Source of the DNA: a virus
IMG/VR virus record: IMGVR_UViG_3300046524_000229
Span: 43,135-107,134 of that record
Direction: 5' to 3' (one strand)
DNA: 64,000 nt
Of the stretch, positions 59,011-62,582 are shown one piece after another. Every line of letters begins with the position of its first letter. Positions within the stretch are counted from its first letter, which is position 1. The position numbers and the translations under genes were made by a program. The notes below the pieces were generated by a model that did no database searches, had not been told where the DNA came from, and saw only the letters and a list, made by a program, of their open reading frames with translations.

Positions 59011-60714
59011 TTACGCTCTCATCTTCATCAACATATCATTCACAGCTTGCTGCGTAATGCCAGGCTTCACTTCTTTTACCTGACCCCAGTTAAAACCAAT
59101 TTCACCTTCCACGCCAATCGGAAGGTCCAGCCAATCGAAATGCTCTACGGGCCATTCGTTCATGTAATAGAACGCTGTCTCGATCACTTCTGCTGCACGT
59201 TCAATCGGTACTTCGAATTCTACCGAATCATACACGGTACAGATACTCTTACAACGTGGATCGATCTTTTGAATCGCCTGGTCCAAATGTGCAAACGTTA
59301 CAAGACCAAGCGTAGACGTTGCACTTTGAATACGAACGTTTTGTGCATTGCGCAGCGATGCGTTATATGCTGCGGTACGCTTGAACGCAGGCTGAGCAAC
59401 ATACTCGTGCTTGTACTGACCAAACGGAGTCCATACTTTCTGGTTCAACAGTGCCATCTGATGCGATTCTTCAATGTAGTCTTTAACGCCGGGATAAGCG
59501 TTGAAGTACATATTGACCAGTCGCTCTGCCTCACTCTTTTCTAACTGCAACTGCATTGCAATACCATTCACTGACGAGCCATATAAAATTGAAAAAGTTA
59601 AAACTTTTGCAACTTGTCGCATACGCTTGTACTCTTTCTTCAGAGGATGCGAATCATCTTCCAGGATATGGATATAGTCTTCGTACGGCACACCCATCAT
59701 CGCACTTGCCGAAAATGAATGGAAATCCAAACCTTCAGCAATTGCACGAAGCATATTCTTGTCTTTACAGATAGCTCCTAAGATTTTTACTTCTGCTGAC
59801 GAGAAATCAAAAGCGATGAACACATTACCGTTAGCAACAGTGTAGCACTCTCGGACATTATAACCATGCTTTGGACGGGGAAGCTGAGTTAAATTGGGTG
59901 AATCTGCGGTTATTCTAAAACTGCTAGTGCCAAACATGTTGTAACTAGGATGAATACGTCCATCCGTACGAACGAAATCTTCTACATACGTTTTAATAAA
60001 AGTATTATGGACGCTATTGATATCTTTTCGTTTAGCCATATCAGCTAAAAACTGTTTTTCAGGATCCGGGGCTGTATATTGATTAGCTAACGGATTCAAT
60101 CCAGCCAACGTCAAAAGCGCAGCACCATCAGTTGCGTCATCGCCAGACTTAGTCTTGAACGGTGCTTCAAGTCCTAGTTCACCATAAAGATACTGAGACA
60201 CTTCAACGCCAGAGTCTAGATTGATTCGCTTACCAATTGCACTGAAAATCTTCTCATCAAACTCTGCTACTTCCTGGACCATCTGCTGCGAGATTGCCCG
60301 GTTCCTAGCTATATCATAAAGCATCCCATTAATTTCGAGATTAATAATGAACTCATGACAAAGCATTTCCGTCTCTAGAACGGACTTGATAATACCAGGT
60401 GCTGTTATTTTCTTAGGTTGCCCATTTTTCTGAGGCATCAATAACTCTTGTGGCTTTACTAAAGCAGGCCACAATGCAGTAAGAACTTCTGAAGTTACTA
60501 TATTATCAATTCCTGCATACAACATCAAATCAGAATAGTTAAAGTCTTCATATGTACGGTAGATTTTCTTCTCTTCAGAAATCTCAACTACCGTCGGTTC
60601 TTTCTTCTTTCGAGCCTTTTTACTAGCCGGGGCTTCTACAGCTTTTTCGACAACCTTGTCTCCTAGTACTTCTGCGATAGGTTTTTTGGATTTAGGTACA
60701 ATACGTTTAATCAT
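59011..60714 (-). CDS. DNA polymerase A, C-terminal fragment (Exo III motif + polymerase domain)
   Basis: Begins with a ~45-residue basic tail (SKKARKKKEP), then YEDFNYSDLMLYAGIDNIVT, the Exo III motif (Y-x3-D) of family A 3'-5' exonuclease, then thumb and the polymerase motifs: A VFIAFDFSSAEVKILG, B RQVAKVLTFSILYGSS, C CTVYDSVEFEVP. Complete palm/fingers, 567 aa. The missing part of the exonuclease is on the gene at 61329-62582. Start ATG overlaps the stop of the inserted HNH-type gene (ATGATTAA). Confidence 0.93.
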   Translation of the reverse strand: MIKRIVPKSKKPIAEVLGDKVVEKAVEAPASKKARKKKEPTVVEISEEKKIYRTYEDFNYSDLMLYAGIDNIVTSEVLTALWPALVKPQELLMPQKNGQPKKITAPGIIKSVLETEMLCHEFIINLEINGMLYDIARNRAISQQMVQEVAEFDEKIFSAIGKRINLDSGVEVSQYLYGELGLEAPFKTKSGDDATDGAALLTLAGLNPLANQYTAPDPEKQFLADMAKRKDINSVHNTFIKTYVEDFVRTDGRIHPSYNMFGTSSFRITADSPNLTQLPRPKHGYNVRECYTVANGNVFIAFDFSSAEVKILGAICKDKNMLRAIAEGLDFHSFSASAMMGVPYEDYIHILEDDSHPLKKEYKRMRQVAKVLTFSILYGSSVNGIAMQLQLEKSEAERLVNMYFNAYPGVKDYIEESHQMALLNQKVWTPFGQYKHEYVAQPAFKRTAAYNASLRNAQNVRIQSATSTLGLVTFAHLDQAIQKIDPRCKSICTVYDSVEFEVPIERAAEVIETAFYYMNEWPVEHFDWLDLPIGVEGEIGFNWGQVKEVKPGITQQAVNDMLMKMRA

Positions 60715-61345
60715 ATTTCTTACGATAATTAATTGTGGATAAGGCTTTTTCTAAAGGCCAGTTATTTTTCAAACGAGTATGTAGAGTTGTAACTGAAATG
60801 CCTAATTTTTCAGCCCACTGTAATTGTGTCATGGTTTCGTTTTTGAAAGTGATAATTTTCGTAGAACGTCTGTTATTACTTTGTTCTTTATTATCGGACC
60901 ATTTACAATTAGCTTTACAATAATTACCATTTACATCTATACGATCTATGGAAAGTCCCTCTGGCCTTTCTCCCATATCTTTTAGAAATGCTTCAAATGA
61001 TTTCCACCGTTCATCTACGGATATACCCCTTCCACCGTAGTTTGGATAATTATCTTGAGCCTCATCCGTACAGCGAGCCCACATACTTATCCAAGTTTTA
61101 TACGTCTTGGTTTTACTTAGTCCATGCGTCTGACTTCTGATAACAGTTAATTCTTTAGCCAAACAGCCACAAGAGTTACTATCTCCACCTCTAAGTGAAG
61201 CTCCTGATATAGATTTAATATTTCCACAACTGCATTTACAAATCCAAAAAGGCCGTTTAGAAACTCGTTCGACGTCTATACCTGTAACGGTTAACCTACC
61301 AAAGACTTTACTTGTTAAGTCGATGTATCTACTTTTCATCTTCAA
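60707..61345 (-). CDS. HNH-type homing endonuclease splitting DNA polymerase A
   Basis: FGRLTVTGIDVERVSKRPFW, a CKCSCGN...SCGC zinc cluster, then LSIDRIDVNGNYCKANCKWS with EQSNNRR (a common phage HNH/AP2-associated motif) and a C-terminal HTH (TQLQWAEKLGISVTTLHTRL). Overlaps the upstream fragment by 17 bases and the downstream fragment by 8. AT-rich like other mobile genes here. Probably the agent that split the polymerase. Confidence 0.8.
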   Translation of the reverse strand: MKMKSRYIDLTSKVFGRLTVTGIDVERVSKRPFWICKCSCGNIKSISGASLRGGDSNSCGCLAKELTVIRSQTHGLSKTKTYKTWISMWARCTDEAQDNYPNYGGRGISVDERWKSFEAFLKDMGERPEGLSIDRIDVNGNYCKANCKWSDNKEQSNNRRSTKIITFKNETMTQLQWAEKLGISVTTLHTRLKNNWPLEKALSTINYRKKYD

Positions 61346-62582
61346 CCTCGACTTCTCCTAATTCTTCCAAATCTTTTGTTTTGGTAAGTTTCGGAAGTAA
61401 GTCTTCATAGCCACCAAGCCCAGTCCAAGGCACAATATCCCATACAGCAGTCTTGAGCGAGTAAGTGTTTTGCGCTCCCGAATCTAGGCTATGTAGAAGA
61501 AGAAGAGTATCAAACGCAACATTCTTAACTCGGACTTTCGTTGTAAACCAAATATATAGTATGTCGAACTTCGCATTGTGCAAAACTTTAGGTCTGTCAC
61601 CTTCTAAAAATGGCTTCACCAATTCCCACGCTTCATCTCCGCTATAGAATGTATTTTCTCTATGCCACAGCGGTACAACTAAAGCTTTAACCAACTTATC
61701 AGCCGGATCTCTATATCCGAACTGAATACACAACAACTTTGCGTCAGGCGCTAGTCCATCGAACCCCGTAGTCTCAGTATCTACACTGACAATCGAATTC
61801 TCAGGAAGAGCCCAGAGGATGTCCATGTACTCTTTTACGTCCTCAATAGACTCTGCAACACGAATTCTGTTCTGCTTGTAAAACTCAATTGCTTCCAGTA
61901 GCGGAGCTGGCTTTAGATCACCCCTAGCCATCGCTGCTGCCTTCTTGAAGTCACGGAGGATCACTCCATATAACTCCTGTCCCCAGAAGGCTCCTGAAGC
62001 GTTTTGACGAATCATTGTCAATGCTCTGGGATGAATCGTAATCACGACATTGTCAACGTACTCACCCCTATTACCCGTATTACTGTGTTTCTTGTAACCC
62101 AACGCTTTAGTCACTGCAGTTGCCAGACTAATGATCACCTTAGGTTTACAGGATTCAATCTCCTGCCAAAGGTAAGGTCTACACTTCATCAGCGTTGTTG
62201 CTGTCGGAGCTTTACCATTTGGAAAATCTGCTTCTGTCGGAGGACACTTCAACAGATCTACCATGCGATATGTCAGGTTCCCGAACCCAGCTGCCTTACA
62301 CAGATGGAAGATGATGTCCTGCATCAGCTTTTCTTGCTGACCTTCAAACTTGTCCCACTTACCGTCCGGTGCTGCATGATCCTGGATGATAAGAATGTCT
62401 ACTTCTTTCTTGGCTAAAAAGACAGATTCGTATTGCTTGCACTTCAGCTTACAGACCTTCTCACAATACGTCGGGCTGATCTTACTGAAATCCTCTTTAA
62501 CATGAATAACTGCCTCTACTGTACTTGTAATCTTTGGTTTTGCATACAAGTCGTTTAGCGCCATGTCGGCGAGTTTTACCAC
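61329..62582 (-). CDS. DNA polymerase A, N-terminal fragment (UDG-like domain + Exo I/II motifs)
   Basis: Residues ~25-230: a uracil-DNA-glycosylase-superfamily-like domain (VDILIIQDHAAPDGKWDKFE, KVIISLATAVTKAL, VVITIHPRAL, Cys cluster CEKVCKLKC), as at the N-terminus of SPO1-type phage polymerases. Residues ~265-400: exonuclease half with Exo I IVSVDTETTGFDG and Exo II VLHNAKFDILYIWF. It ends in an acidic tail LEELGEVEVEDEK before Exo III. Stop TAG overlaps the HNH start. Confidence 0.9.
   Translation of the reverse strand: MVKLADMALNDLYAKPKITSTVEAVIHVKEDFSKISPTYCEKVCKLKCKQYESVFLAKKEVDILIIQDHAAPDGKWDKFEGQQEKLMQDIIFHLCKAAGFGNLTYRMVDLLKCPPTEADFPNGKAPTATTLMKCRPYLWQEIESCKPKVIISLATAVTKALGYKKHSNTGNRGEYVDNVVITIHPRALTMIRQNASGAFWGQELYGVILRDFKKAAAMARGDLKPAPLLEAIEFYKQNRIRVAESIEDVKEYMDILWALPENSIVSVDTETTGFDGLAPDAKLLCIQFGYRDPADKLVKALVVPLWHRENTFYSGDEAWELVKPFLEGDRPKVLHNAKFDILYIWFTTKVRVKNVAFDTLLLLHSLDSGAQNTYSLKTAVWDIVPWTGLGGYEDLLPKLTKTKDLEELGEVEVEDEK

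Follow-up and report, generated by a model that had tools for sequence, protein, structure and literature searches.

We analysed a 64,000-nucleotide stretch of viral DNA (IMG/VR record IMGVR_UViG_3300046524_000229, positions 43,135 to 107,134), here referred to as the window, and identified a family-A DNA polymerase (PolA) that is encoded in two pieces, with an HNH-type endonuclease gene in the seam between them. It is probable that the pieces make up a two-subunit replicative polymerase, in which two separately translated chains fold together and the proofreading site spans their boundary: the N-half, with a uracil-DNA-glycosylase (UDG) superfamily domain and the exonuclease motifs Exo I and Exo II, and the C-half, with Exo III and the polymerase domain. 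Such a polymerase would most likely be an obligate heterodimer. We could establish the anatomy of the locus, a break whose position is common to a diverse clade and independent of the HNH gene, and purifying selection on halves that have kept every exonuclease and polymerase motif; from the sequences we infer the physical assembly, activity and essentiality of the two halves.

Three minus-strand open reading frames (ORFs), namely the N-half, the HNH gene and the C-half, overlap end to end at the locus (Table 1). An earlier note, made from these letters alone, had placed Exo I and Exo II on one ORF and Exo III with the polymerase domain on another, and both its coordinates and its frames were correct. 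It had also described the HNH gene as overlapping both halves, which is the case: the overlap with the C-half is ATGATTAA (60707-60714), as claimed, and that with the N-half is GTTGAAGATGAAAAGTAG, for which the ATGAAGATG given in the note was a small transcription slip. In the N-half, Pfam detected UDG (1.5e-9, residues 79-195), a domain that had been overlooked, followed by DNA_pol_A_exo1 (1.6e-7, residues 246-359). The PolA exonuclease motifs (Exo I DxE, Exo II NxxxFD/YD and Exo III YxxxD) are complete, but spread over two proteins, and the palm of the C-half has both motif A (FDFSSAE) and motif C (VYDS). Against the PHROG profile phrog_17, the two halves matched adjoining, non-overlapping stretches (464-780 and 781-1247). 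The AlphaFold model of the N-half (predicted local distance difference test score, pLDDT, 81) had the phage family-A polymerase 9qhs_A as its top PDB fold match, followed by UDGs (family-4-like), and the model of the C-half matched the folds of the Taq, Bst and Klenow polymerases. Only one polA match was detected in the 107-kb record, and there was no match to PolB or PolIII alpha in it.

Relatives (identity 38-93%), denoted here by L numbers, were gathered by searching viral contigs, phage records and genomes. Both halves were separate ORFs in 26 records, a total that counts the window itself and a few near-duplicates (L006/L007, L016/L027 and L025/L028), and the break was always at one site, after Exo II and before Exo III; in a 27th record (L024/L088) the halves were at opposite contig ends. 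As the break was found in 25 other records too, it is not a matter of chance. The two halves overlapped directly, with no HNH gene, in 11 of the 26 (L004, L006, L007, L008, L014, L018, L019, L021, L026, L029 and L035), while an HNH gene occupied the seam in four (the window, L005, L016 and L027) and other, ordinary genes were found there in L002, L015, L017, L020 and L022. The distance between the halves was about 3.6 kb in L075, about 5.3 kb in L083 and 7.8-9.0 kb in Salmonella phage Arash (L001), L023, L025 and L028. Judged from these comparisons, the split is old, common to a clade of large phages and independent of the HNH gene. One of the records, L029 (PFHN01000050.1), is a contig of 4.4 kb from the bin of a Candidatus Moranbacteria metagenome-assembled genome, which may be a host signal or mis-binning.

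The earlier note had presented the polymerase as split by the HNH gene, and this was not supported, as 11 relatives share the break and have no such gene, among them L004, the nearest sister of the window. In the tree, L015, with no HNH gene in its seam, was likewise sister to L016, which has one. These two pairs indicate that the HNH gene arrived, or arrived and was lost again, on more than one occasion in lineages that were already split. The window HNH showed 75% identity to that of L005 and only 44% to that of L016, and a 41% relative was identified in a different seam, between pol and rnhA, in L006/L007; both the 44% and the 41% are as expected for separate arrivals. DNA-level comparison with phage records gave short matches only, chiefly to HNH genes. 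Pfam returned no HNH model above the cut-off for the seam gene, which was thus classified with PHROGs, where it matched phage HNH families, and it fits a free-standing HNH homing endonuclease in its intergenic position and its patchy occurrence (the window and L005 have it, L004 does not). Because there are split lineages without it, including close sisters, and because the HNH genes look like separate arrivals, the present HNH evidently did not cause the split. It is most likely a mobile, later arrival at an already split polymerase.

A homing endonuclease could still have made the original split by insertion and then been lost from most lineages, as insertion-split genes are known (PMC2988022) and the HNH genes in the seams of the window, L005, L016 and L027 belong to one family. 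The 11 directly overlapping records, the unrelated genes in other seams, the sisters L004 and L015 and the divergence of the HNH genes all speak against such an origin, and we regard it as unlikely; an extinct HNH in the ancestor as the cause of the split is given the same low probability. The seams of L016 and L027 hold extra sequence beyond the HNH gene, which in L016 consists of three small genes resembling those of L015. Past its HNH gene and outside any C-half (L016:4010-4130), L016 also has GATTAAGCG, a 9-mer that is present in the L004, L006 and L008 seams as well and is possibly a relic or due to chance.

The case for a two-subunit polymerase is carried mainly by the exonuclease residues. 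In every record seen, the Exo I and Exo II residues were on the N-half and Exo III on the C-half, and the Exo III motif YA[GA]xD was kept in all 25 C-halves checked, right after a lead that varies freely. If instead the halves never reassembled, the C-half would be an exonuclease-less polymerase and the UDG-exonuclease protein a separate or relict one. The large distance between the genes in Arash and its kin, at which coupled synthesis is not required, would agree with this, but the retention of Exo III beside so variable a lead, and of Exo I and Exo II, would be unexpected unless the exonuclease site were rebuilt. Both halves are under purifying selection: the ratio of nonsynonymous to synonymous substitution rates (dN/dS) in close pairs was 0.05-0.13 for the N-half, which also argues against a relict, and 0.03-0.06 for the C-half, one pair of which was not estimable; these are rough values, with synonymous sites near saturation. 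We consider independent halves quite improbable. Reassembly of the two polypeptides, which the earlier note had suggested, is the likeliest outcome, because nothing would favour the upkeep of Exo III in a free polymerase with no exonuclease.

The evolutionary distances of the two halves were correlated (r=0.89), also among the loci at which the halves are far apart (r=0.94). As evidence for a two-subunit polymerase this is weakened by shared descent, which would give correlated distances as well. Other points weigh against it too: the C-half model had a pLDDT of 67, which is a modest confidence, and the record, like several of the others, is a fragment, so that a further polymerase could be encoded beyond its ends. 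The best trees, moreover, do not place L042, the uninterrupted relative described below, outside a single split clade, and L042 could be a re-fusion.

Joining of the halves at the level of RNA or protein was considered as well. The earlier note held that no in-frame splicing is needed, and the searches bear this out: no intron or intein was detected in the record, and a search of 58000-63600 against the Rfam intron families gave nothing relevant, even at E<5. A self-splicing intron, trans-splicing or a split intein that restores one ORF would have a precedent in the same gene, as group I introns were identified within the palm-coding part of the C-half in Arash (L001:3257-3528), L020 (two, 12891-13149 and 13497-13795) and L022 (12530-12795), together with a match below the gathering score in Vibrio phage D69 (L002, 3249-3767). 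At the break itself, however, the seam gave no match, and the 11 directly overlapping relatives need no splicing. An intein half is longer than the 17-45 amino acids that follow GYE in the N-half tails. Restoration by splicing is thus extremely unlikely. In L025, the palm region was uninterrupted where Arash and others have group I introns.

A programmed +1 (or -2) ribosomal frameshift, by which some phages would make a single fused protein, would account for the C-half being in the +1 frame relative to the N-half in all 11 directly overlapping seams, but inheritance from one event explains the common offset too. In L004, L006 and L008, the C-frame has a stop immediately or one codon before the start of the C-half, which leaves few codons for a shift, and no slippery motif was evident by eye. 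Furthermore, an entire HNH ORF lies between the halves in the window and L005, and about 8-9 kb in Arash and its kin. It is very unlikely that frameshifting joins them.

Comparison with uninterrupted relatives, as the earlier note had proposed, led to L042, in which a single 932-amino-acid protein showed a strong match to both half profiles. Its junction reads GGYEDKLPDLTKAKDLEEEGEEEEDSLLSPSKPVYRTYEDF, and the acidic stretch that ends the N-half elsewhere is an internal linker there (LTKAKDLEEEGEEEEDSLLSPSKPVYRTYEDF). A search with L042 found no second uninterrupted member, the sole other match being a distant sequence with 23% identity. The N- and C-domains were also joined, in one chain or one spliced gene, in the distant LysYB1, Manatee, SPO1, L093 and L094. 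Two marks of a split enzyme were found here: an intact gene in relatives (L042, LysYB1 and others) and halves that are adjoining parts of phrog_17. Since distant phage polymerases have both domains together, a joined polymerase is likely to be the deeper ancestral state. The placement of L042 outside a single split clade was not rejected (approximately unbiased test, p-AU 0.10 and 0.17). If L042 is ancestral-like, the acidic tail was not gained after the split, contrary to what had been claimed; if it is a re-fusion, the tail turned into a linker.

The acidic tail itself was a constant feature. The last 15 residues of the N-half had a mean net charge of -7.5, and 22 of 23 N-halves were at -5 or below. 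So low a charge was found in 1.6% of 305 other genes and in 2.3% of 87 genes that overlap the start of the next gene, the control genes being mechanically called ORFs. We also considered the tail as a mere by-product of the overlapping start, which is insufficient, because other genes with such a start have no such tail; its retention thus has reasons beyond the start site.

In the earlier note, charge complementarity between the acidic tail and a basic lead on the C-half was thought to help the fragments join. The acidic part of this idea stood, since the tail is kept everywhere and far above controls, while the basic part did not. Most leads were net positive, and lead charge per residue was correlated with that of the tail (rho -0.63), but net charge as such was not (rho -0.30, p 0.18), both without correction for phylogeny. 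L020/L021 had acidic leads and L022/L026 neutral ones, those of the Arash group were just 7 residues long, and most leads were no more than mildly unusual compared to other genes. As the acidic stretch is already internal in L042, an electrostatic clasp that drives assembly, which would be an addition to the two-subunit polymerase rather than an alternative to it, is doubtful. Complementarity between tail and lead is possible, but would not be general.

The split may well have arisen by one frame change or restart within the acidic linker, which would have ended the first protein and restarted the second; the break falls in the linker that L042 still carries inside its exonuclease domain. In the directly overlapping seams, one purine-rich stretch of DNA gives many Glu codons in one frame and many Lys codons in the other, and a Shine-Dalgarno-like sequence derived from the GAA/GAG-rich linker preceded the start of the C-half in most seams examined, so these codons could act as a Shine-Dalgarno sequence for that start. 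The HNH gene would then have entered a tolerant seam, between ATGA and TTAAACG, leaving both ORFs intact and bringing new stop and start codons, with stop/start overlaps retained at both sides.

Table 1. Features of the split polymerase locus, in positions of the window
Feature	Position	Strand	Remarks
RNase HI gene	58506..59009	-	Adjoins C-half downstream; Pfam RNase_H 3.5e-41
C-half	59011..60714	-	567 aa; Exo III and polymerase domain; Pfam DNA_pol_A 1.1e-59
Exo III Y66-A-G-I-D70	60505..60519	-	On C-half; YA[GA]xD in 25/25 C-halves examined
N-terminal lead of C-half	60565..60714	-	Variable; net +8 in the window, unconserved in the clade
Free-standing HNH endonuclease gene	60707..61345	-	Start TTG 61345 or ATG 61339; phrog_374 1e-67
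Approximate inserted element, ~625 bp	60711..61335	-	ATGA at both flanks, then TTAAACG; judged against HNH-less seams
N-half of polymerase	61329..62582	-	417 aa, GTG start; UDG-superfamily domain and 3'-5' exonuclease domain through Exo II
Acidic C-terminal tail of N-half	61332..61403	-	After GYE; matches internal acidic linker of uninterrupted L042
Exo II N336..D340 (NAKFD)	61563..61577	-	Aligned to Klenow; N336 and D340 invariant in A4 alignment
Exo I D268-x-E270 (DTE)	61773..61781	-	Catalytic; aligned to Klenow DTET; invariant in A4 alignment

Several split enzymes of phages resemble the one described here. The family-B polymerase of the T4-like Aeromonas phages 25 and 44RR is a replicative polymerase of two polypeptides, gp43A and gp43B, with an endonuclease at the seam in one relative and not in another (PMC2988022). 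The two halves from phage 25 co-purify with polymerase activity, and its seg endonuclease may have invaded a gene that was already split (PMC2988022). That case is known from two related phages and a seg-type endonuclease, whereas here a PolA with a UDG domain is split in a wide clade, with an HNH-type gene. Comparison with the split NrdA of Aeromonas phage Aeh1, made in the earlier note, is apt, as there too an HNH homing endonuclease (mobE) lies between two ORFs of one enzyme (PMC2988022). The Aeh1 products reassemble into a fully active protein (PMC2988022), whereas reassembly here is deduced from sequence, and the Aeh1 split is attributed to the insertion of mobE, whereas most relatives here are split with no HNH gene. 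The working principle would appear to be that of split T4-type gp43 and Aeh1 NrdA, but in a PolA with an ancient split.

The same domain order was found in SPO1 gp31 and other Herelleviridae UDG-Exo-PolA proteins (about 25% identity, phrog_17). These are single polypeptides, unlike the two ORFs described here, which are fused only in L042 and distant homologues; in gp31 the palm is interrupted by an intron that is removed by splicing and holds a putative homing endonuclease gene (PMC11878797). The PolA of OM43 phages, MEP401/MEP402, also consists of two ORFs with a small ORF between them, but its break is within the polymerase domain, where the authors suspected an intron (PMC10580990), and not between Exo II and Exo III. 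We found no published description of a split PolA of this kind, nor any paper on phage Arash itself, in the open-access literature, and a text search of a survey of phage polymerases (PMC11348598) gave no UDG and no split polymerase.

From the gp43 case it could not be told if the endonuclease had caused the split or had come into a gene already split (PMC2988022), and the clade described here offers the comparison: for a PolA, the split is widespread without an endonuclease, the endonuclease has a scattered distribution and a single gene is still uninterrupted. If the halves assemble as proposed, nature would here provide a proofreading polymerase in two parts, and the existing split site in its exonuclease domain could serve to study or engineer proofreading that can be switched. 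Perhaps the whole clade of large phages has an obligate two-subunit PolA with a shared proofreading site, whose genes drifted apart, and the UDG-exonuclease chain is a detachable uracil-sensing and proofreading module, independently made or exchanged and held by its acidic tail; we offer this wider picture tentatively, as possible but not likely. There is also a warning to annotators, as the parts of the enzyme in Arash bear separate labels ('uracil DNA glycosylase', 'DNA polymerase nu' and 'DNA polymerase theta'); the last two are the exons on either side of the palm intron, annotated as separate genes.

Other genes were identified in the window. A Thg1-like gene (62665-63504) adjoins the polymerase. 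An HTH-HNH gene (43458-43997; HTH, helix-turn-helix) was detected by Pfam (HNH 5.8e-8), and two further ORFs (28076-28600 and 38183-38728) resemble it by eye, with no HNH Pfam match. A Ro60-like protein with TROVE and Ro60 vWA domains is encoded at 7114-8736, around which (6300-9800) there was no Y-RNA-like Rfam match. The ORFs at 52099-54522 and 54532-55833 have a Pfam Pnkp ligase and a Hen1 N-terminal domain, and resemble the bacterial Pnkp/Hen1 RNA repair pair. A nicotinamide phosphoribosyltransferase (19754-21151) lies beside a cytidylyltransferase-like/NUDIX protein (21204-22352), a possible NAD+ salvage pair, and Arash is annotated with a similar pair between its polymerase halves. Eighteen tRNA genes (Rfam), all on the minus strand, are scattered over 25312-46096.

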